A stretch of 64,000 nt of DNA from Candidatus Anaerostipes avistercoris (GTDB lineage: Bacteria > Bacillota > Clostridia > Lachnospirales > Lachnospiraceae). Below, one piece after another: positions 53,459 to 63,763 of this stretch. Where the stretch lies: assembly GCA_019119895.1 (NCBI GenBank), contig DWWD01000024.1, forward strand, positions 1 to 64,000, read 5' to 3'. The notes beneath the pieces are model-generated. The model was given only the letters and a program-made list of their open reading frames with translations, did no database searches and was not told the origin of the DNA. The position numbers were made by a program, and so were the translations under genes. The stretch's first letter is position 1; every line of letters starts with the position of its first letter.

Positions 53459-54406
53459 ATGAAAATCGTATTACTGGAAGGTCTGGGAGTCTCAGATGAA
53501 TTTATCAGCTGTCAGGCGGAAAAACTGAAGGAAATGGGTCACGAATTTACTGCTTATGAGAAAAATACAGACCCTCAGGTACAGGCAGAACGGTGTGCAG
53601 ATGCGGATGCTGTCATGCTTGCCAATATGCCTTTGAGCAGGGAAGCCATCGAGAGCGCTTCTCATCTGAAATACATTGACGTGGCATTTACCGGCGTGGA
53701 TCATATTCCGATGGATGAGGCAGGGAAAAGAGGAATCGCTGTCAGTAATGCTTCCGGATATGCGACCCAGGCTGTGGCGGAACTTTGTATCAGCTTCATG
53801 ATTCAGCTGCTCCGCAATGTGAAGCAGACAGAGCAGAGATGCAGGGAAGGCGAAACAAAAGACGGACTGATCGGAAATCTTCTTTGCGGGAAGACCATTG
53901 GGATCATTGGAGCCGGAGCCATCGGAAAGAAAACAGCAGAACTTTGCAAAGCTTTTGGCTGCAAAGTGATCGCATACAGCAGAAGTGAAGTAAAACATCC
54001 GGCCATTGACCGGCAGGTAACGCTGGAAGAATTGTTAAAAGAAGCGGATATTGTATCCCTGCATTGTCCGTTGACAGCGGAGACCAGAGGAATGATTGGA
54101 GAAGAGCAGCTTCAGCTGATGAAAAAGACAGCGGTGCTGATCAATACGGCCAGAGGCCCGGTGGCAGATACCGAAGCTCTTGCCAAAGCACTGGGAGAAG
54201 GAAGGATTGCGGGAGCCGCATGTGACGTATTTGAGACAGAACCGCCGCTGGATACAGAACATCCGCTGCTCCATACACCGAATACCATTGTTACGCCGCA
54301 TATTGCCTTCGCCTCTGAGGAATCTATGGAACAGAGAGCGGAAATTGTATTTGAAAATCTGTATGCGTGGCTGGAAGGGAAACAGCTGAACGCGGTGAAA
54401 ATGTAG
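53459..54406 (+). CDS. D-2-hydroxyacid dehydrogenase
   Basis: GKTIGIIGAGAIGKKTAELCKAFGCKVIAYSRS; VLINTARGPVADTEAL; HPLLHTPNTIVTPHIA. Confidence 0.92.
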   Translation: MKIVLLEGLGVSDEFISCQAEKLKEMGHEFTAYEKNTDPQVQAERCADADAVMLANMPLSREAIESASHLKYIDVAFTGVDHIPMDEAGKRGIAVSNASGYATQAVAELCISFMIQLLRNVKQTEQRCREGETKDGLIGNLLCGKTIGIIGAGAIGKKTAELCKAFGCKVIAYSRSEVKHPAIDRQVTLEELLKEADIVSLHCPLTAETRGMIGEEQLQLMKKTAVLINTARGPVADTEALAKALGEGRIAGAACDVFETEPPLDTEHPLLHTPNTIVTPHIAFASEESMEQRAEIVFENLYAWLEGKQLNAVKM

Positions 54407-54610: not shown

Positions 54611-54638
54611 AAAACCGCATTTCATATGAAACGCGGTA
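54611..54638 (-). terminator. Leftward terminator just outside the left inverted repeat
   Basis: Minus strand reads ACCGCGTTTCATATGAAATGCGGTTTTTTG: near-perfect palindrome plus T6. Confidence 0.7.
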
Positions 54639-54649
54639 AATCTCCGATC

Positions 54650-54670
54650 ATTCTTAAAGTAGTACACTAT
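54650..54670 (+). repeat. Left inverted repeat ATTCTTAAAGTAGTACACTAT
   Basis: Exact reverse complement of 56209-56229. Confidence 0.95.
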
Positions 54671-54672
54671 AC

Positions 54673-54720
54673 GAAAAAATCCCCTGACATCATTGTTTTC
54701 ATCTGACATCAGGGGATTTT
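54673..54720 (-). terminator. Terminator of the recombinase gene at the left end of the invertible element
   Basis: AATCCCCTGA...TCAGGGGATT; T6 on the minus strand. Confidence 0.8.
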
Positions 54721-54847
54721 CCCTTCATTTTAAATTACGAGCAATCTCTGTAATTTCAGCACGATTTAATTTTTCACAAACAAAATAAAAAGAAATGCTA
54801 TATTATATGAAGGGAAAAAACAGGCCATAGCATAAACTGCTATGACC

Positions 54848-56005
54848 CTAATTCTGACCCCAAACAGAAATCTCTTCCAGTCGGTCCATTTGCTGTTTTT
54901 TAGCTTCAATTGATGGATGCACATATCTCTGCAGTGTCGTATTTATATTTGCATGACCCAGTATTTCACTTAAGGATTTAATATCGAATCCGCTTTCCAC
55001 ACACCGGGTAGCAAATGTATGACGCAGACTATGAAATGTAAAAGAATGGAGCCCTGCCTGATTTAAAATATGCTTATACTTATCCAGACATACTCTTGGC
55101 TCTAAGTAGGATTTATTTCCTGTAATAAGATAAGTTTCATCAGATTTCTGATGCTTTATTAATAGTTCTGTAAGAAATGATGACAGCGGGATCAGACGAT
55201 TGGAACTTTCTGTTTTGGGCTGTCCGATCATAATTTTTGTTCTCTCCTGAGAATCTGAAGTAACGTTCTGAATTCGTATTAATGTTTTATTGATCCGGAT
55301 GGTTCCACTTTCCGGATTAAAATCTTTCCATTTCAACGCACACAATTCTCCAATCCGAAGTCCGCCGTACAAAACAAGCAGTATTCCAAGTCCCAGAGGT
55401 GAGGGATTTTGAAACAGGAACTGTTCCAGCTTCGCCTGTTCTTCTCTCGTCAGTACCTTAGCTGCAGAACGCCTAATTTTAGGATAATAGATATCCTGCT
55501 CTATCTGACAAGCGTAATGTTTCTTTCTTGCAAACTTCAATGCCAGAACCAATACCGAACGAATATCCGCCACAGTTTTTGGGGATAACCCTCCTTTTCT
55601 ATCAATTCTTCCTGAAATCAATTTTTCTTTCAGAAAATCATCTATCGTTTCTGTCTGCAGATTTTGCAGACAGGTCTCCCCTAATGCAGGTAAAATATGT
55701 TTTTCTAGAATATTTTTATAATGTGCAAAAGTAGATTCTTTCACCTCGTTCCGTCTTGATTCCATCCACTCTTCCATTAACTGTTTCAATGTGATTTTAA
55801 ATTCAGCTTGATTTCTTCCATTTGATACATGATCAGGGTTAAGATGATTCTGTATAAATTCATTCTTCTTTTTCTTTGCTTCCAGATAGGTTCTGCCATA
55901 AAAAGAACGATATTTTGCTTTCCCTGATAAATCATGTGTATAAATTACCCTTGCCTCCCAGCGTCCGTCTTTTCGCTTCCTTATATTTTCACCACGTCTT
56001 CCCAT
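54848..56005 (-). CDS. Tyrosine recombinase/site-specific integrase
   Basis: Catalytic motifs [13 protein letters not shown] (R), [15 protein letters not shown] (HxxR), [16 protein letters not shown] (H/Y); start [19 protein letters not shown] with upstream aaaggga RBS. Confidence 0.93.
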
Positions 56006-56136
56006 AACACTTATTCCCTTTCCGTTAAGAAACTTTTTCGATGTGGCGTATATGCAGTGACCAGTTTTTTGACCCCGAATCAATAAAAATCTTTGAAATT
56101 GTCCCTGTTTCATGTCTTATGCAGACTATTTATTAG

Positions 56137-56164
56137 TTGACAACCTTTTCATCTGTGATATAAT
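56137..56164 (+). promoter_or_regulatory. Strong outward promoter TTGACA-16-TATAAT with extended -10 (TGATATAAT)
   Basis: Both hexamers match consensus exactly; lies inside the element, 45 bp from the right repeat, directed to the EPS operon. Confidence 0.85.
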
Positions 56165-56208
56165 GATAGGGAATTAATGGCATGTGAGTGCATAATTTAG
56201 CCACTCGC

Positions 56209-56229
56209 ATAGTGTACTACTTTAAGAAT
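56209..56229 (-). repeat. Right inverted repeat ATAGTGTACTACTTTAAGAAT
   Basis: Exact reverse complement of 54650-54670. Confidence 0.95.
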
Positions 56230-56281
56230 AAAAAATCCACGTTTTCAGCGTGGTAATTTATACCAGGGAGGAGAATGTGTA

Positions 56282-56698
56282 TTGAAGAAAGCGTATCAAT
56301 CTCCGGAAATCCATCGAGTTGAATTGACGCCAATGCCGGACATTGATCTGGCAAATGCCTCAGATGAGGAACTGTCGGCCGCAATGAAAGCAGGCTTGTA
56401 TTTTGAAAATAAAGTTTGTTATCAGCAAAATCGGGAATTTAAGATTTGCGAATTACTGGGCAGAACTGTTCTGATGCCGGTAAAGCGTGATGCAGAGCAG
56501 ATCAGCAGGATAACAGCTATTGGCGCAGAAGAAAAATTTCTATGGGGTAAGTTATCGAAACGAAGAACTAAGGCAGATCTGGTTGATCTTCTCGCAGCAG
56601 AACAGGGAAGAGAGGGCCGGGCAGTGGAAGCCGATGTCAATAAATTTATTAAAAAAGCGATAGAGGAAAATCTTATTATCCGCTGTGACATGAAATAG
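56282..56698 (+). CDS. PqqD-like (RiPP recognition element-like) protein with N-terminal extension, TTG start
   Basis: gggaggag RBS; C-terminal EKFLWGKLSKRRTKADLVDLLAAEQGREGRAVEADVNKFIKKAIEENLI, PqqD-like. Confidence 0.7.
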   Translation: MKKAYQSPEIHRVELTPMPDIDLANASDEELSAAMKAGLYFENKVCYQQNREFKICELLGRTVLMPVKRDAEQISRITAIGAEEKFLWGKLSKRRTKADLVDLLAAEQGREGRAVEADVNKFIKKAIEENLIIRCDMK

Positions 56699-56724: not shown

Positions 56725-57075
56725 ATGCAGAAATATATAAAACCTGAATTTTATATTACAGAATTTGAAACAGACGACACCGGTAAGACGAACAGCTGTC
56801 AGTATGTTGACGCAATCAGACGCAGTGCAGCAGGGGAGACTGTGTTGATTCCTGCAGATAAGCAGAAAAAGCATCGCAATGGCATAGTCACCTTCAGCAA
56901 AACAGGAGAGTTTCTGTGGGAACAACTGTCACGGAGACAGACAGAAAGAAGTTTAGTGCATCTTCTGGCGGCGGAATGTGGAAAAGATGAGAAGGAAATC
57001 AAAGCCGATGTGGATGAATTTATAGAAAAAGCAGTCGAAGAAAATCTCATCACTTATTGTGATGCAGAACTGTGA
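56725..57075 (+). CDS. PqqD-like (RiPP recognition element-like) protein, second copy
   Basis: FSKTGEFLWEQLSRRQTERSLVHLLAAECGKDEKEIKADVDEFIEKAVEENLITYC. Confidence 0.75.
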   Translation: MQKYIKPEFYITEFETDDTGKTNSCQYVDAIRRSAAGETVLIPADKQKKHRNGIVTFSKTGEFLWEQLSRRQTERSLVHLLAAECGKDEKEIKADVDEFIEKAVEENLITYCDAEL

Positions 57076-57079
57076 TCTG

Positions 57080-57420
57080 GTAGTAATCCGGGGATATATG
57101 AGCCTCCGACCATATAGACCTGATTTCACTACAGGGAGTATAGGCGTGTGGAGAATTGCCAGTATGCTAACGTACGAAATTCTATACAGGCACAACACAC
57201 AAAGCTGCTGGAAATCAGACCGCTTCCTGGCGGAATCATTTCCAGATCAATATGAGGGGTTAACATGGACAAGACAGTGGCGGGTATGGCCAAAGAGAAG
57301 AATTCCCCCTTCCGGAACCTGTAAATGGTCCCGAATACCGGCTGTCTTGTCCAAATCATATCAAAAAAGAGAATAAGGGTAAAAATGAAAAAAGTAACGA
57401 TCAGATGAGAGAGGGAGAGT
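57080..57420 (+). ncRNA. Hairpin-rich leader region, candidate structured regulatory RNA
   Basis: Consecutive inverted repeats incl. CTGGAAAT(57208)/ATTTCCAG(57238) and TGGACAAGACAG(57266)/CTGTCTTGTCCA(57342); no convincing ORF. Confidence 0.5.
57386..57401 (+). repeat. 16-bp direct repeat TGAAAAAAGTAACGAT, copy 2
   Basis: Identical to 54544-54559. Confidence 0.85.
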
Positions 57421-57424
57421 ATTT

Positions 57425-58159
57425 ATGGAAATGTATGGGAATCATGCGCTGGAAGAGGAGCAAATGAATATGTCCGAGTATGTCGGTTCGCTGAACAAAC
57501 CACTTTCCAGAAAAGTCATCATTTTAAACAGAGAAGCGCAGCTAAGGTCGAAAAAAGGCTACTGTCTGCTTCGCCGGATGCAGGATATCATTCTATCAAT
57601 ATTTGCGCTGGTTGTCTTATCGCCTTTTCTGCTGCTGACCGCATTGATCATATGGCTGGACGATCCGAAGGGAAGTCCAATCTTTGTTCAGGACAGAGTC
57701 GGCAGGGATGGAAAGATTTTTCGGTTTTATAAATTCCGATCCATGTATGTGGATGCAGAAGAAAAACTGGAAAGTCTGCTGAAAGACAATGAGATGGACG
57801 GACCGGCATTCAAAATGAAAAATGATCCAAGGATCACAAGAGTAGGGAAAATAATCCGGAAGCGCGGCATTGATGAACTGCCGCAGCTGATCAACATCCT
57901 GAAAGGGGATATGAGCATTGTCGGACCGAGACCGGCGCTGCCGAGAGAGGTGGAGCAGTATGGTACATATGAAAGACAGCGGCTGTTTGTCCAGCCGGGA
58001 CTTACCTGTTACTGGCAGGTTCAGCCCCACAGGAATGAAATCAGTTTTGATGAGTGGATGGATTTGGATATGAAATACATACAAGAGCGAAGCTTTTGGA
58101 CAGACTGGAAGATTATCTTCAAAACTGTGGAAACAGTATTGGGGAAATATGGGGAGTAA
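57425..58159 (+). CDS. Exopolysaccharide-initiating sugar transferase (undecaprenyl-phosphate glycosylphosphotransferase)
   Basis: RRMQDIILSIFALVVLSPFLLLTALIIWLDDPKGSPIFVQDRVGRDGKIFRFYKFRSM; DELPQLINILKGDMSIVGPRPALP. Confidence 0.94.
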   Translation: MEMYGNHALEEEQMNMSEYVGSLNKPLSRKVIILNREAQLRSKKGYCLLRRMQDIILSIFALVVLSPFLLLTALIIWLDDPKGSPIFVQDRVGRDGKIFRFYKFRSMYVDAEEKLESLLKDNEMDGPAFKMKNDPRITRVGKIIRKRGIDELPQLINILKGDMSIVGPRPALPREVEQYGTYERQRLFVQPGLTCYWQVQPHRNEISFDEWMDLDMKYIQERSFWTDWKIIFKTVETVLGKYGE

Positions 58160-58183: not shown

Positions 58184-59251
58184 ATGAGTTATACGGACTT
58201 AAATGGAAAGAGAATATTGATAACAGGAGCCGCTGGATTTATAGGATCTAATCTGGCAAAACGTCTTTGCAGGGAGTTAGAAGATGTGACTGTTATCGGA
58301 CTCGATAGTATGAATGATTATTATGACGTAAAACTGAAGGATGCAAGATTGAAAGAGTTATCTGAGTATCCTTCCTTTGTTTTTGTGCAGGGAAATATTG
58401 CAGATAAATCTTTGGTAACAGAGATTTTTGATACATATACACCGCAGATTGTTGTAAATCTTGCGGCGCAGGCAGGAGTTCGGTATTCCATTACGAATCC
58501 AGATGCCTATATCGAATCGAACCTGATTGGCTTTTACAATATTCTGGAAGCCTGTCGGCATTCTTATGATAACAATCGAACAGGTGTAGAGCATCTTGTT
58601 TATGCATCCAGTTCTTCTGTTTATGGATCAAATAAGAAAGTGCCGTACAGCACGGAAGATAAAGTGGATCAGCCGGTCAGTCTGTATGCGGCTACAAAGA
58701 AAAGCAATGAATTATTAGCTCATGCATATTCAAAGCTTTATAATATCCCATCCACAGGGCTTCGGTTCTTTACGGTATATGGTCCGGCAGGGCGTCCGGA
58801 TATGGCATACTTTGGATTTACTGATAAGCTTTGCAAAGGTGAAATGATCCAGATATATAACTATGGAAATTGTAAACGAGACTTTACTTACATCGATGAT
58901 ATTGTGACAGGAGTAGAGAAGGTCATGGAGAAAGCGCCGGACAAGATGATCGGCGAAGATGGATTACCAGAACCGCCATATGCGCTCTATAACATCGGAA
59001 ATAACAGTCCGGAAAATCTTCTGGATTTTGTACAGATATTGAGTGAAGAATTGGTGAGAGCCGGGGTTCTTCCGAAAGACTATGATTTTGAGAAACACAA
59101 AGAATTAGTTCCTATGCAGCCTGGAGATGTACCTGTGACCTATGCGGATACGAGCGCATTAGAACGAGACTTTAGCTTTAAGCCGAATACAAGTCTTCGA
59201 GAAGGGCTGAGACAATTTGCTAAATGGTACAAAGAGTTTTATATGAGCTGA
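58184..59251 (+). CDS. NAD-dependent epimerase, UDP-glucuronate 4-epimerase-like
   Basis: RILITGAAGFIGSNLAKRL; YASSSSVYGSNKKVPYSTEDKVDQPVSLYAATKKSNELLAHAYS. Confidence 0.92.
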   Translation: MSYTDLNGKRILITGAAGFIGSNLAKRLCRELEDVTVIGLDSMNDYYDVKLKDARLKELSEYPSFVFVQGNIADKSLVTEIFDTYTPQIVVNLAAQAGVRYSITNPDAYIESNLIGFYNILEACRHSYDNNRTGVEHLVYASSSSVYGSNKKVPYSTEDKVDQPVSLYAATKKSNELLAHAYSKLYNIPSTGLRFFTVYGPAGRPDMAYFGFTDKLCKGEMIQIYNYGNCKRDFTYIDDIVTGVEKVMEKAPDKMIGEDGLPEPPYALYNIGNNSPENLLDFVQILSEELVRAGVLPKDYDFEKHKELVPMQPGDVPVTYADTSALERDFSFKPNTSLREGLRQFAKWYKEFYMS

Positions 59252-59310
59252 TTTTGACAGAGTGAAGATACAACACAAGATTCCACAAATGTGGGAGGAG
59301 AAAAATACTG

Positions 59311-60561
59311 ATGAAAGATTTTAATGATTTGAAGATTGCAGTTGCCGGCACTGGCTATGTTGGGCTTTCAATTGCCACATTACTGGCACAACATCATAAA
59401 GTAACGGCGGTTGATATTGTCCCTGAAAAGGTAGATATGGTCAATGATAGAAAATCACCGATTCAAGATGATTACATTGAAAAATATCTGGCTGAGAAAA
59501 AATTGAGTTTGACAGCTACGCTGGATGCAAAGGAAGCATATAGTGATGCAGACTTTGTTGTGATTGCAGCGCCGACAAACTATGACAGTAAGAAGAATTT
59601 CTTTGATACCTCTGCGGTTGAGAGTGTAATTGAGTTGGTTATGGAATATGCCCCAGATGCAGTTATGGTCATTAAGTCAACGATTCCAGTTGGTTATACG
59701 AAATTTATTCGGGAAAAGACGGGCAGTCAGAATATCATCTTTAGTCCTGAATTTTTAAGAGAGTCAAAGGCTTTATATGACAATTTGTACCCGTCGCGCA
59801 TTATCGTTGGGACAGACATGAAAGATGAGCACTTGCTTGAAGCTGCACATACTTTTGCAAAATTGCTTCAGGAAGGCGCAATCAAAGAAAATATTGAAAC
59901 TCTGTTTATGGGATTTACAGAAGCTGAGGCTGTGAAATTATTTGCCAATACTTATCTGGCATTAAGAGTTGCGTACTTTAATGAACTGGATACGTATGCT
60001 GAGAGTAAAGGCCTGAATACCAAAGAGATTATTGATGGCGTGTGTCTGGATCCAAGAATTGGTTCACACTATAATAACCCGAGTTTTGGATATGGCGGGT
60101 ATTGTCTGCCGAAAGATACGAAACAGCTATTAGCGAATTATGCTGATGTGCCAGAAAATCTGATTGAAGCTATCGTAGAAAGTAATAGAACAAGAAAAGA
60201 TTTTATTGCAGACCGTGTACTGGAGACAGCTGGTGCTTATAGTGCAAATGACAGCTGGAATGAAAATAAGGAAAAAGAAGTTATGGTGGGTGTTTATCGG
60301 CTGACGATGAAAAGCAACAGTGATAACTTCCGTCAAAGCAGCATCCAGGGTGTCATGAAAAGGATCAAGGCAAAAGGAGCTACAGTCATCATTTACGAAC
60401 CGACTCTGAAAGATGGAGATACTTTCTTTGGAAGTAAAGTAGTAAATGATTTGAACGAGTTTAAGCGGCAAAGTCAGGCGATTATCGCTAATCGATATGA
60501 TAAATGTCTGGATGATGTGAAAGAAAAAGTGTATACGAGAGATATATTTATGAGGGACTAA
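59311..60561 (+). CDS. UDP-glucose 6-dehydrogenase family
   Basis: [66 protein letters not shown]. Confidence 0.93.
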
Positions 60562-60567
60562 AAGAAA

Positions 60568-61038
60568 ATGAGCAAAAAGCAAAGGAAGAAAAAACCTAAA
60601 ATATGTCTTGTTTCCTCTTCGGGAGGACATTGGGAACAACTTCAAAAATTAGAACCACTAATCCGGAAATACGATGGTTTTTTTGTGACAGAAAAAACAA
60701 AGTTTGAGGCAAACGCCAGATATTTGATGATTCAGACAGATTTAAAAGACAAATTCATGTTTCCTAAGATGCTGATAAATGGTCTAAAAGCTTTAAAAAT
60801 TTGGATAAAGGAAAAGCCTGATTTCATTGTAACAACAGGAACTATGGTAGCTTATCCTTTTTATCTGTTAGCTATTATTATGCATAAAAAGTTTATATTT
60901 ATTGAGACATTTGGACGTGCAGATATGCCAACAGTGGCAGGCAAGATGATGGAAAAACATTCCGATCTATTTATTGTTCAGTGGGAGTCACAAGTAAAAC
61001 ATTATAAAAAAGCTATTTACGGAGGGTGTTTGTATTGA
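60568..61038 (+). CDS. PssD/Cps14F-like glycosyltransferase subunit (Alg14-like)
   Basis: KICLVSSSGGHWEQLQKLEPL; IFIETFGRADMPTVAGKMMEKHSDLFIVQWE. Confidence 0.9.
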   Translation: MSKKQRKKKPKICLVSSSGGHWEQLQKLEPLIRKYDGFFVTEKTKFEANARYLMIQTDLKDKFMFPKMLINGLKALKIWIKEKPDFIVTTGTMVAYPFYLLAIIMHKKFIFIETFGRADMPTVAGKMMEKHSDLFIVQWESQVKHYKKAIYGGCLY

Positions 61039-61529
61039 TTTTTGTAACTGTTGGTTCAAGAAATTATCCGTTTGACCGATTATTCAAGAAATTGGATGAA
61101 TTATATGAGGACGGAATCTTGACTGAAAGGATGTTTGCGCAAATAGGAACTTCTACATATAAGCCAAAACATTATGAATTCGAAGACTTTATTTCACCAG
61201 ATGAATTCATGAAGAAAATAAAGGAAGCTGATATAGTTGTGAGTCATGGTGCATCTGGTTCCATTATGAAAGCGTTAAATGAGGATAAAAAAGTGATAGC
61301 AGTAACCAGGCTTGAAAAGTATGGGGAGCATATTAATGATCATCAGATTCAGAACAATGAGGCGTTTAGTAACAATGGATATGTCTTAATGGCAGATTTA
61401 GAACTGGAGAATCTAGGTGAGTGTTTTCAGAAAATATATAGAGGAACGGATAGACTAAAACACTGGGGAAATAGGGATCCTATGGCGATAGTGAATTTAA
61501 TAGATAAATTTATTCAGAAAAATTGGTAG
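61035..61529 (+). CDS. PssE/Cps14G-like glycosyltransferase subunit (Alg13-like)
   Basis: IFVTVGSRNYPFDRLFKKLDEL; ADIVVSHGASGSIMKALNEDKKVIAVTRLEKYGEHINDHQ. Confidence 0.9.
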   Translation: MIFVTVGSRNYPFDRLFKKLDELYEDGILTERMFAQIGTSTYKPKHYEFEDFISPDEFMKKIKEADIVVSHGASGSIMKALNEDKKVIAVTRLEKYGEHINDHQIQNNEAFSNNGYVLMADLELENLGECFQKIYRGTDRLKHWGNRDPMAIVNLIDKFIQKNW

Positions 61530-61552
61530 TATATCTTTAAGGAGAAACGATC

Positions 61553-63763
61553 ATGGAATTTGTTGAAATCGAGCAGACTGGAAAACGTATATTTGAACAG
61601 TTTCCTGTTGTTAAAAAGTTAGCTAAAAGAGTATATCAGATTATAAGTGTAGTCACTTCAAAAGAAAAGTTTAAATCTGAAGGCAATATTGTCAGAATAT
61701 CTCCCGATGATGAATATGAATATTTTTATGGATATTATGATAAATCCCCATGGGATAAATCAGATCGTTACATGATTTGTCTAAAGGTCAAACAGACCTA
61801 TAAATCAGTGGCTCCGAAAGAACCAGGGATTGTTGGAGTGATTGACACACAGTCTAATAATAAATTTAAAATGATAGGAACTACGCATTCTTGGAATGTA
61901 CAGCAGGGATGTATGGCGCAATGGATGGGACCAGACTTTGAATCAAAAATAATATATAACGATTTCCGTGAGGGTAATTATTGTTCGGTAATTTATGATT
62001 TTAAAAACAATAAAGAAGAAAAAATACTTCCTATGGCTGTTTATGATGTAGCTAAAGATGGGAGCTTTATATTAAGCCTTGATTTTTCACGGTTGCATAG
62101 AATGCGTCCAGGCTATGGCTATTCAAATCTTCCAGATACTACTAAAGAGGAATTGTGTCCAGAAAAAGGATGTATTTGGAAGGTTAATGTTGAAACCGGA
62201 GAGGTTACTGAGCTATTTAAATATACAGACTTTGCGAACTTTGAACCAAATGAGAGTATGGTAGGTGCAGAACATAAAGTAAATCATCTGATGATAAGTC
62301 CAAATTGTAAAAGAGTTATGATATTACACCGTTGGTTCCAAAAAGGACGTAAGCACACTAGATTAGTAACAGTAAATATTGATAAAACGGAAATGTATAA
62401 CCTTAGCGACAATGTTTTTGTATCCCATTGTTATTGGAAAAATGATGAAGAAATTTTATCTTTTCTTCGGAAGAATGATGCGGGTGATCATTACTACTTG
62501 ATGAAAGATAAAACACAAGAATACAAGATGTATTGGCCGGAACTTAAGACCGATGGTCATTGCAGTTATAGTCCAAATCGGAAATATGTTATTACAGATA
62601 CGTATCCCAATAGGAAAAGGATTGCATCAGTTTATCTATGCACAGAAATATCAAACCAAAGTCAAAGAATTGCTAGGGTGTATTCACCGTTTAAGTATGA
62701 TAATGATTGTAGATGTGACTTGCATCCGAGATGGAATAGAAAAGGGGATAAAGTCTGTATCGATTCCGTTCATAATGGAAAGAGAGGATTGTTTGTAATT
62801 GATTTAACTACATTAATAATGAATAACGAAAAAAAAGAATTAGTAAATGAAAAAATAAAAAAAGTAGCAATTATTCGGTCTAATAAGTTTAAATTAATCG
62901 CAAAAGAAGAAAAAGATATATTTTATGTGGAAGATATGTTTTCAGAACTAAACAAAGTTAATTCTTTAATACGTGATATATGCCTATATGGAAGATTAAG
63001 GATTAGTAGCAATTATTATAATAAGAAATTAGTGAGTTTAGATACAGATACAATTATTATTTTTGACCCTCACGTAAGGATTCAATTTCTAAAATGGCTA
63101 GTAATGAACAATCCTGATAAGAGAATTATACTGTGGTTTTGGAATACGATAAAAGAAATTGGGAAAAACATTCCATTGGATAAAATACCAGAATCAATTG
63201 AATTGTGGTCCTATTCGATATATGACTGTGAAAAATATGGATTAAAATATAATACAACATTTTATCCATATGAAATACGAGTACATCAGGATGTAGAGGA
63301 AAAGTATGATGTTTGCTTTGTAGGGAAGGACAAGGGAAGATTAGAAAAGATATTAGAGATTAAAGAGGCTCTTGAAAAGAGAGGTTTAAAGACATATTTT
63401 CACATTTCACCTACACATCAATATGAATTGAGAAAAAAATCTGTATACAAACCGAAAATTGCTTATAGTGATGTTGATAATATAATTTCAAAAAGCCGTT
63501 GCATTTTAGATTGTGAGGTAGATAGCTTTGCAGGACCGACAATCAGACCTTTGGAGGCTATATACCGTAGGAAAAAATTGATATCAAATAATCAATCATT
63601 AAGAAATGAAGATTATTATAATAGTTCCAATATTTTCATTTATGGAAAAGATGATATTGATAAAATTATAGAATTCATAGAAAAACCGTATGAAGAATAT
63701 GATGAGTCAATATTGAAAAAATATAGTATGAGAGAATGGGTAAAACGTTTTTTTAAGGAATGA
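61553..63763 (+). CDS. Two-domain protein: N-terminal beta-propeller-like (YFYGYYDKSPW) and C-terminal glycosyltransferase-like domain
   Basis: Repeated propeller-type segments to ~residue 420, then CFVGKDKGRLEKILEIKEALEKRGLKTYFHI...AGPTIRPLEAIYRRKKLISNN. Confidence 0.6.
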   Translation: MEFVEIEQTGKRIFEQFPVVKKLAKRVYQIISVVTSKEKFKSEGNIVRISPDDEYEYFYGYYDKSPWDKSDRYMICLKVKQTYKSVAPKEPGIVGVIDTQSNNKFKMIGTTHSWNVQQGCMAQWMGPDFESKIIYNDFREGNYCSVIYDFKNNKEEKILPMAVYDVAKDGSFILSLDFSRLHRMRPGYGYSNLPDTTKEELCPEKGCIWKVNVETGEVTELFKYTDFANFEPNESMVGAEHKVNHLMISPNCKRVMILHRWFQKGRKHTRLVTVNIDKTEMYNLSDNVFVSHCYWKNDEEILSFLRKNDAGDHYYLMKDKTQEYKMYWPELKTDGHCSYSPNRKYVITDTYPNRKRIASVYLCTEISNQSQRIARVYSPFKYDNDCRCDLHPRWNRKGDKVCIDSVHNGKRGLFVIDLTTLIMNNEKKELVNEKIKKVAIIRSNKFKLIAKEEKDIFYVEDMFSELNKVNSLIRDICLYGRLRISSNYYNKKLVSLDTDTIIIFDPHVRIQFLKWLVMNNPDKRIILWFWNTIKEIGKNIPLDKIPESIELWSYSIYDCEKYGLKYNTTFYPYEIRVHQDVEEKYDVCFVGKDKGRLEKILEIKEALEKRGLKTYFHISPTHQYELRKKSVYKPKIAYSDVDNIISKSRCILDCEVDSFAGPTIRPLEAIYRRKKLISNNQSLRNEDYYNSSNIFIYGKDDIDKIIEFIEKPYEEYDESILKKYSMREWVKRFFKE

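Follow-up and report, generated by a model that had tools for sequence, protein, structure and literature searches.

Invertible promoters are known to control polysaccharide genes, and in the gut invertons of the PhaseFinder studies inversion switches the operon and recombinases are often found nearby (PMC11892184; PMC8748976; PMC10939037). In the Bacteroidales cases described in PMC8748976, these promoters carry a -33 TTTG and a -7 TAnnTTTGY motif, and the invertase gene adjoins the segment from outside. Much work has been done on the phase variation of surface polysaccharides in that order, but little in Lachnospiraceae-type gut bacteria. PMC11892184 does describe inverton groups dominated by Clostridia, and an enrichment of tyrosine-type recombinases close to some groups, and these may overlap the recombinase family considered here.

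The locus in the window (the whole 64-kb stretch of DNA that was analyzed) resembles the gut invertons in that inverted repeats flank a promoter placed ahead of surface-polysaccharide genes (PMC11892184; PMC8748976; PMC10939037). It differs from the Bacteroidales type both in its promoter, which is TTGACA/TATAAT, and in the position of the recombinase gene, which is inside the segment (PMC8748976). The features of the locus are as follows:

53459-54406, + strand: 2-hydroxyacid dehydrogenase gene, on the far side and outside the switch (PF02826, 2e-63)
54614-54637, - strand: intrinsic terminator 12 nt outside IR-L, reading leftward (-16.9 kcal/mol, z -3.3, U6 tail)
54650-54674: left inverted repeat IR-L, 24/25 complementary to IR-R; counterpart of the site to which the crossover was mapped in the paralogous cassette
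54658-54668, - strand: IR-L core, AGTGTACTACT
54822-54848, - strand: intrinsic terminator within the segment, serving the recombinase gene (-17.0 kcal/mol, z -4.9, U-rich tail)
54848-56005, - strand: tyrosine recombinase gene, 385 aa from a conserved MGRRGEN start; frame open up to 56113
56137-56142, + strand: -35 hexamer TTGACA, an exact match to consensus
56143-56158, + strand: promoter spacer of 16 nt, between -35 and -10
56156-56164, + strand: extended -10 TGaTATAAT (TG at 56156-56157, TATAAT at 56159-56164)
56205-56229: right inverted repeat IR-R, pairing with IR-L
56211-56221: IR-R core, AGTGTACTACT
56237-56253: hairpin in the predicted EPS leader (-7.9 kcal/mol), a weak terminator on the + strand and a better one on the - strand
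56282-56698, + strand: pqqD-like gene 1 (pqqD1), 138 aa, TTG start after GGAGGA (PF05402, 1e-5)
56725-57075, + strand: pqqD-like gene 2 (pqqD2), 116 aa (PF05402, 2e-13)
57425-58159, + strand: undecaprenyl-phosphate sugar transferase, the priming enzyme (PF02397, 7e-68; TIGR03025, 2e-80)
58184-63763, + strand: EPS genes for a NAD-dependent sugar epimerase, UDP-glucose dehydrogenase, PssD, PssE and a WaaS/CpsH-like glycosyltransferase

The promoter and its enclosing segment

The first-pass annotation had described a TTGACA hexamer at 56137-56142 followed after 16 nt by a TG-preceded TATAAT at 56159-56164, and these elements proved correct to the base. It had also called this the best promoter it noticed in the window, in agreement with a score of 12/12 (by consensus only) and with its being the sole exact TTGACA-N15..19-TATAAT match on either strand of the 64 kb, given that chance produced a mean of 0.067 such matches per shuffled window and 0.0023 per shuffled segment. 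Judged by consensus, it would be a strong promoter of the sigma-A type. A start near 56171 had been proposed, and taking 56164 as -7 places the predicted +1 at G56171. The surroundings were likewise described accurately: the promoter lies between the divergent recombinase gene on the - strand and the right repeat, and the genes that follow are two with PqqD domains and then one with a Bac_transf domain. To that description the present analysis adds the two intrinsic terminators on the - strand, at 54637-54614 and 54848-54822. On the + strand, the stretch from the switch up to pqqD1, which is predicted to be the first gene of the ON transcript, has no other promoter scoring at least 9/12.

Two of the features expected of an inverton, flanking inverted repeats and an internal consensus promoter facing outward to a gene, are present. 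The two repeats are 25 nt long, 96% identical (24/25) and 1530 nt apart, and enclose the recombinase gene in a segment (54650-56229) that measures 1.58 kb in all. Elsewhere in the genome, the repeats have only one copy, with 2 mismatches, and this is at a paralogous cassette, L034. A search of Rfam with the segment and leader gave sub-threshold hits only (Phe_leader, E 0.56; CRISPR-DR, E 0.6).

The enclosed gene was identified by profile search as a recombinase with domains PF00589 (1e-27) and PF14659 (9e-15), and its closest solved structures are the Int proteins 6en0, 6emy and 6emz. In the alignment, the full-length homologues have M(G/A)RRGEN near their N-termini, which makes the ATG at 56005 (385 aa) its probable start, rather than position 56113, where the longest frame (421 aa) opens. 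The catalytic series R..K..HxxR..H..Y is complete (R253, K300, H361, R364, H387 and Y397 in the numbering of the ORF) and invariant in nine homologues; the nucleophile, Y397, is Y361 of the 385-aa protein.

On the EPS side, the two PqqD-like proteins have leader-like N-termini (MKKAYQSPEI... and MQKYIKPEF...), as in RiPP precursors, and no radical SAM gene was found near them up to 63763. The sugar transferase gene is preceded by a 349-nt gap (57076-57424) with a long-range hairpin, TGGACAAGACAG...CTGTCTTGTCCA, and this gap may act in cis on the EPS operon. It had no match in Rfam, and we rejected it as a multicopy or conserved RNA element, as convincing copies were absent and its fold z was -1.7.

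The paralogous cassette and the recombinase family

The best proof of inversion comes from the second cassette of the same genome, L034 (contig 47, 108000-117617), which is located before another EPS operon and encodes a recombinase ~55% identical to that of the window. Its syntenic orthologue in another species of the same genus, L035, shares with it the EPS side and a collinear upstream flank (87% identity), but the segment between them, 83% identical, is in reverse orientation; it has been inverted since the two species split. The junctions of L034 read ...GACGCAA|AGTGTAATACT|TTCGGAC... and ...AAATCTAAT|AGTGTAATACT|CTAAGAA..., and those of L035 read ...GACGCAA|AGTGTAATACT|CTAAGAA... and ...AAATCTAAT|AGTGTAATACT|TTCGGAC.... 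All four are therefore reciprocal about AGTGTAATACT, which puts the crossover within 11 bp. A 12/12 promoter occupies the same place in both cassettes, facing away from the EPS genes in L034 and into them in L035, from which we infer that L034 is OFF and L035 ON. The segment of L035 also holds an additional ORF, similar to transposases of the IS200 type. The core of the window's repeats, AGTGTACTACT, is one base different from AGTGTAATACT, and we infer that this central-base difference, together with the divergence of the recombinases, would keep the two switches of the genome apart.

To place the locus among its relatives, ~85 testable loci with related recombinases were surveyed in named genomes and MAGs of Clostridia and in relatives of the window's genome, with 18 more distant integrases as the control and with a flanking inverted repeat called at a score of at least 14. 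Judging by its nearest relatives, the window's genome probably belongs to the Lachnospiraceae. Such repeats flank at least 62 of the ~85 family loci and none of the 18 distant integrases. Between the recombinase gene and the nearer repeat, a promoter scoring at least 11/12 faces outward in 30 of these 62 loci and inward in 1; at a threshold of at least 10/12 the numbers are 53 outward and 10 inward, and although the loci are not independent of one another the asymmetry is large all the same. Many of the family's sites are dyads of the form TTTCG(C/T)A(G/A)A-centre-TCTGCGAAA, with dyad scores that are mostly 13-18 of 18 (9-12 in base-shuffled controls) and a centre that is nearly always of odd length. 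Orientation, called crudely from gene order, is OFF in 34 loci and ON in 10, with 14 ambiguous and 4 unassigned; the window's cassette is among the ON minority and L034 is OFF. Of the OFF-oriented loci, 8 of 33 have a terminator past the end that carries the promoter, where 0.4 would be expected, and none of 34 has one on the target side. A post-recombinase terminator inside the segment was rejected as a family-wide feature, as it was found in only 3 of 48 loci, the window included.

The neighbors of the cassettes include EPS/capsule genes, SpaA-type pili, adhesins, signal peptidases, helicase-associated proteins and an EcoRI-type methylase. LytTR/GHKL genes recur beside the surveyed cassettes, with seven response regulators and seven kinases of these two-component systems among 87 proteins scanned. 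On the megaplasmids of Enterococcus raffinosus and E. gilvus (L141-L144, L148), related recombinase genes precede accessory Sec (SecA2/SecY2/Asp1) and WxL surface loci, and others are present in phage-labelled contigs. The closest other relative of the window's cassette (L047:4300-7731) faces a RiPP-like cluster in which a pqqD-like gene and a radical SAM gene are accompanied by a small, partly masked ORF that looks like a precursor and by signal-peptidase-like and kinase-like genes, and the two pqqD-like genes of the window may have been derived from a module of this kind. One subfamily has TTTCGTCAATTCCGCCCAT-type repeats (L050, L051 and L056, on three contigs of one MAG, and L052, L058, L075 and L077), with up to three cassettes, 93-94% identical, per genome. 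Two further cassettes, L063 and L064, come from records under the names Butyricicoccus pullicaecorum and Blautia glucerasea; they are 100% identical to each other, and their flanks nearly so, which points to recent transfer or contamination.

The proposed switch and the alternatives to it

We consider it very probable that 54650-56229 is a self-contained invertible promoter cassette that switches the EPS operon ON and OFF, because the layout recurs across many gut bacteria and the paralogous segment is reversed in a sister species. The elements themselves, the architecture of the family and the reciprocal inversion of the paralogous cassette are seen in the sequence; promoter activity, inversion of the window's own segment and dependence of the EPS genes on this promoter are predicted from it. 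That the promoter is inside an invertible segment and points into the EPS operon, in a presumed ON state, was already the view of the first-pass annotation, and it gains support from the outward promoters (30 versus 1), the family-specific repeats and the reciprocal inversion of L034 and L035. In the proposed mechanism, both repeats would be copies of the recombinase's own dyad site, and conservative exchange in their core, AGTGTACTACT, would let the enzyme turn the segment around. The orientation of the assembly would be ON, with the promoter firing rightward through IR-R into pqqD1, pqqD2 and the EPS genes. The inverted orientation would be OFF: the promoter, now directed leftward, would run into the terminator that adjoins IR-L on its outer side, and read-through from the recombinase gene into the EPS genes would be blocked by the terminator of that gene (54822-54848). 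The predicted outcome is bistable EPS expression. The earlier suggestion that the inverted promoter would face leftward is retained, but its corollary, antisense transcription of the dehydrogenase gene, is unlikely because the promoter would meet the intrinsic terminator at 54637-54614, 12 nt beyond IR-L.

The first alternative is that the cassette was once invertible and is now frozen ON, its promoter serving as a plain constitutive EPS promoter. Consistent with this, the other orientation of the window's locus was not found: none of 11 genomes of the genus had an orthologue of the exact locus, IMG/VR scans with the ends of the window's and L034 cassettes did not reveal a second orientation of it, and the promoter end of the switch had no match in IMG/VR. 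The excess of OFF over ON calls in the family (34 versus 10, by crude gene order) fits the same explanation. Clean flips between species were limited to one pair, L034 and L035, the other comparable loci sharing one orientation; comparable strains were all in one orientation among the Enterococcus raffinosus megaplasmids, as were comparable loci in a second genus of the family. On the other hand, the recombinase frame and catalytic residues are intact, the repeats are still 24/25 identical, and the L034/L035 cassette has inverted since the species split, so we regard a frozen cassette as improbable.

It is less likely still that the promoter mainly serves a target other than EPS, such as a short regulatory RNA that stops at the hairpin of 56237-56253, the EPS genes then being driven by another promoter in the 57076-57424 gap. 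The weak leader hairpin and the structured 349-nt gap would suit such an arrangement, and both do leave room for other control of EPS. However, the U tail of the hairpin is poor on the + strand (UAAUUUAUA), a ribosome-binding site and pqqD1 follow directly after it, the gap has no + strand promoter scoring at least 9/12, and homologous cassettes directly face genes. Finally, that the recombinase is the integrase of a small mobile element, with attachment-type repeats and a promoter that serves the element, or EPS only incidentally, is very hard to credit: the broad family is shared with ICE and phage integrases (PF14659 and PF00589; solved relative Int 6en0) and has members on Enterococcus megaplasmids and phage-labelled contigs, but the repeats are inverted and not direct, the window's segment contains no other mobility genes, the more distant integrases lack flanking repeats (0/18), and the L034/L035 segment is inverted and not absent.

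Beyond the invertible EPS cassette of the window, we lean toward a broader interpretation, namely that there is a large family of autonomous promoter cassettes, each encoding its own tyrosine recombinase, which is common in Lachnospiraceae and other Clostridia and extends to Enterococcus megaplasmids, and that these cassettes have been repeatedly recruited to set EPS, pilus, adhesin, RiPP-like, LytTR/GHKL and DNA-modification loci ON or OFF. With a TTTCG(C/T)A-type dyad particular to each recombinase, switches that share a genome could be thrown one without the other, as could the two EPS switches here, which are in opposite states. A recognizable portable cassette, consisting of a recombinase gene, an outward consensus promoter, dyad repeats and sometimes an OFF-side terminator, would allow a switch and its state to be annotated from an assembly alone, and would indicate where to expect bet-hedging among EPS, pilus, adhesin and quorum-sensing-like loci. 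Such cassettes would also be compact, self-contained switches for the engineering of gut Clostridia.

Relation to known switches

The Hin enzyme of Salmonella is a serine recombinase, whereas that of the window is a PF00589 tyrosine recombinase with a different site. In its layout, the Hin flagellar switch is similar to the window's, as the recombinase gene and an outward promoter are both inside the invertible segment (PMC5903667). The fimbrial segment of Providencia stuartii also encloses a recombinase ORF and adjoins a surface-structure locus, but it is 844 bp with 14-bp repeats and belongs to a proteobacterium, and the likeness noted here is one of layout (PMC5903667). The RecV switches of Clostridioides difficile share with the window a tyrosine recombinase, a host among the Clostridia and surface or signalling targets; however, RecV acts on segments of 154-230 bp that do not contain recV, compared to 1.58 kb with the recombinase enclosed, and the flagellar switch of C. 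difficile acts after initiation, through Rho (PMC7446863, PMC5903667). The fimS element of E. coli (FimB/FimE) is likewise an invertible promoter of the tyrosine-recombinase type, but its 314 bp encode no recombinase (PMC9993118, PMC5903667). In our literature search, in which PMC11892184 was covered by its main text, we found no description of a self-contained tyrosine-recombinase switch family of Clostridia or Enterococcus. Invertible promoters and recombinase-enclosing segments are both already known, and what is new, as far as that search reached, is the tyrosine-recombinase family of Clostridia and Enterococcus to which the window's cassette belongs.
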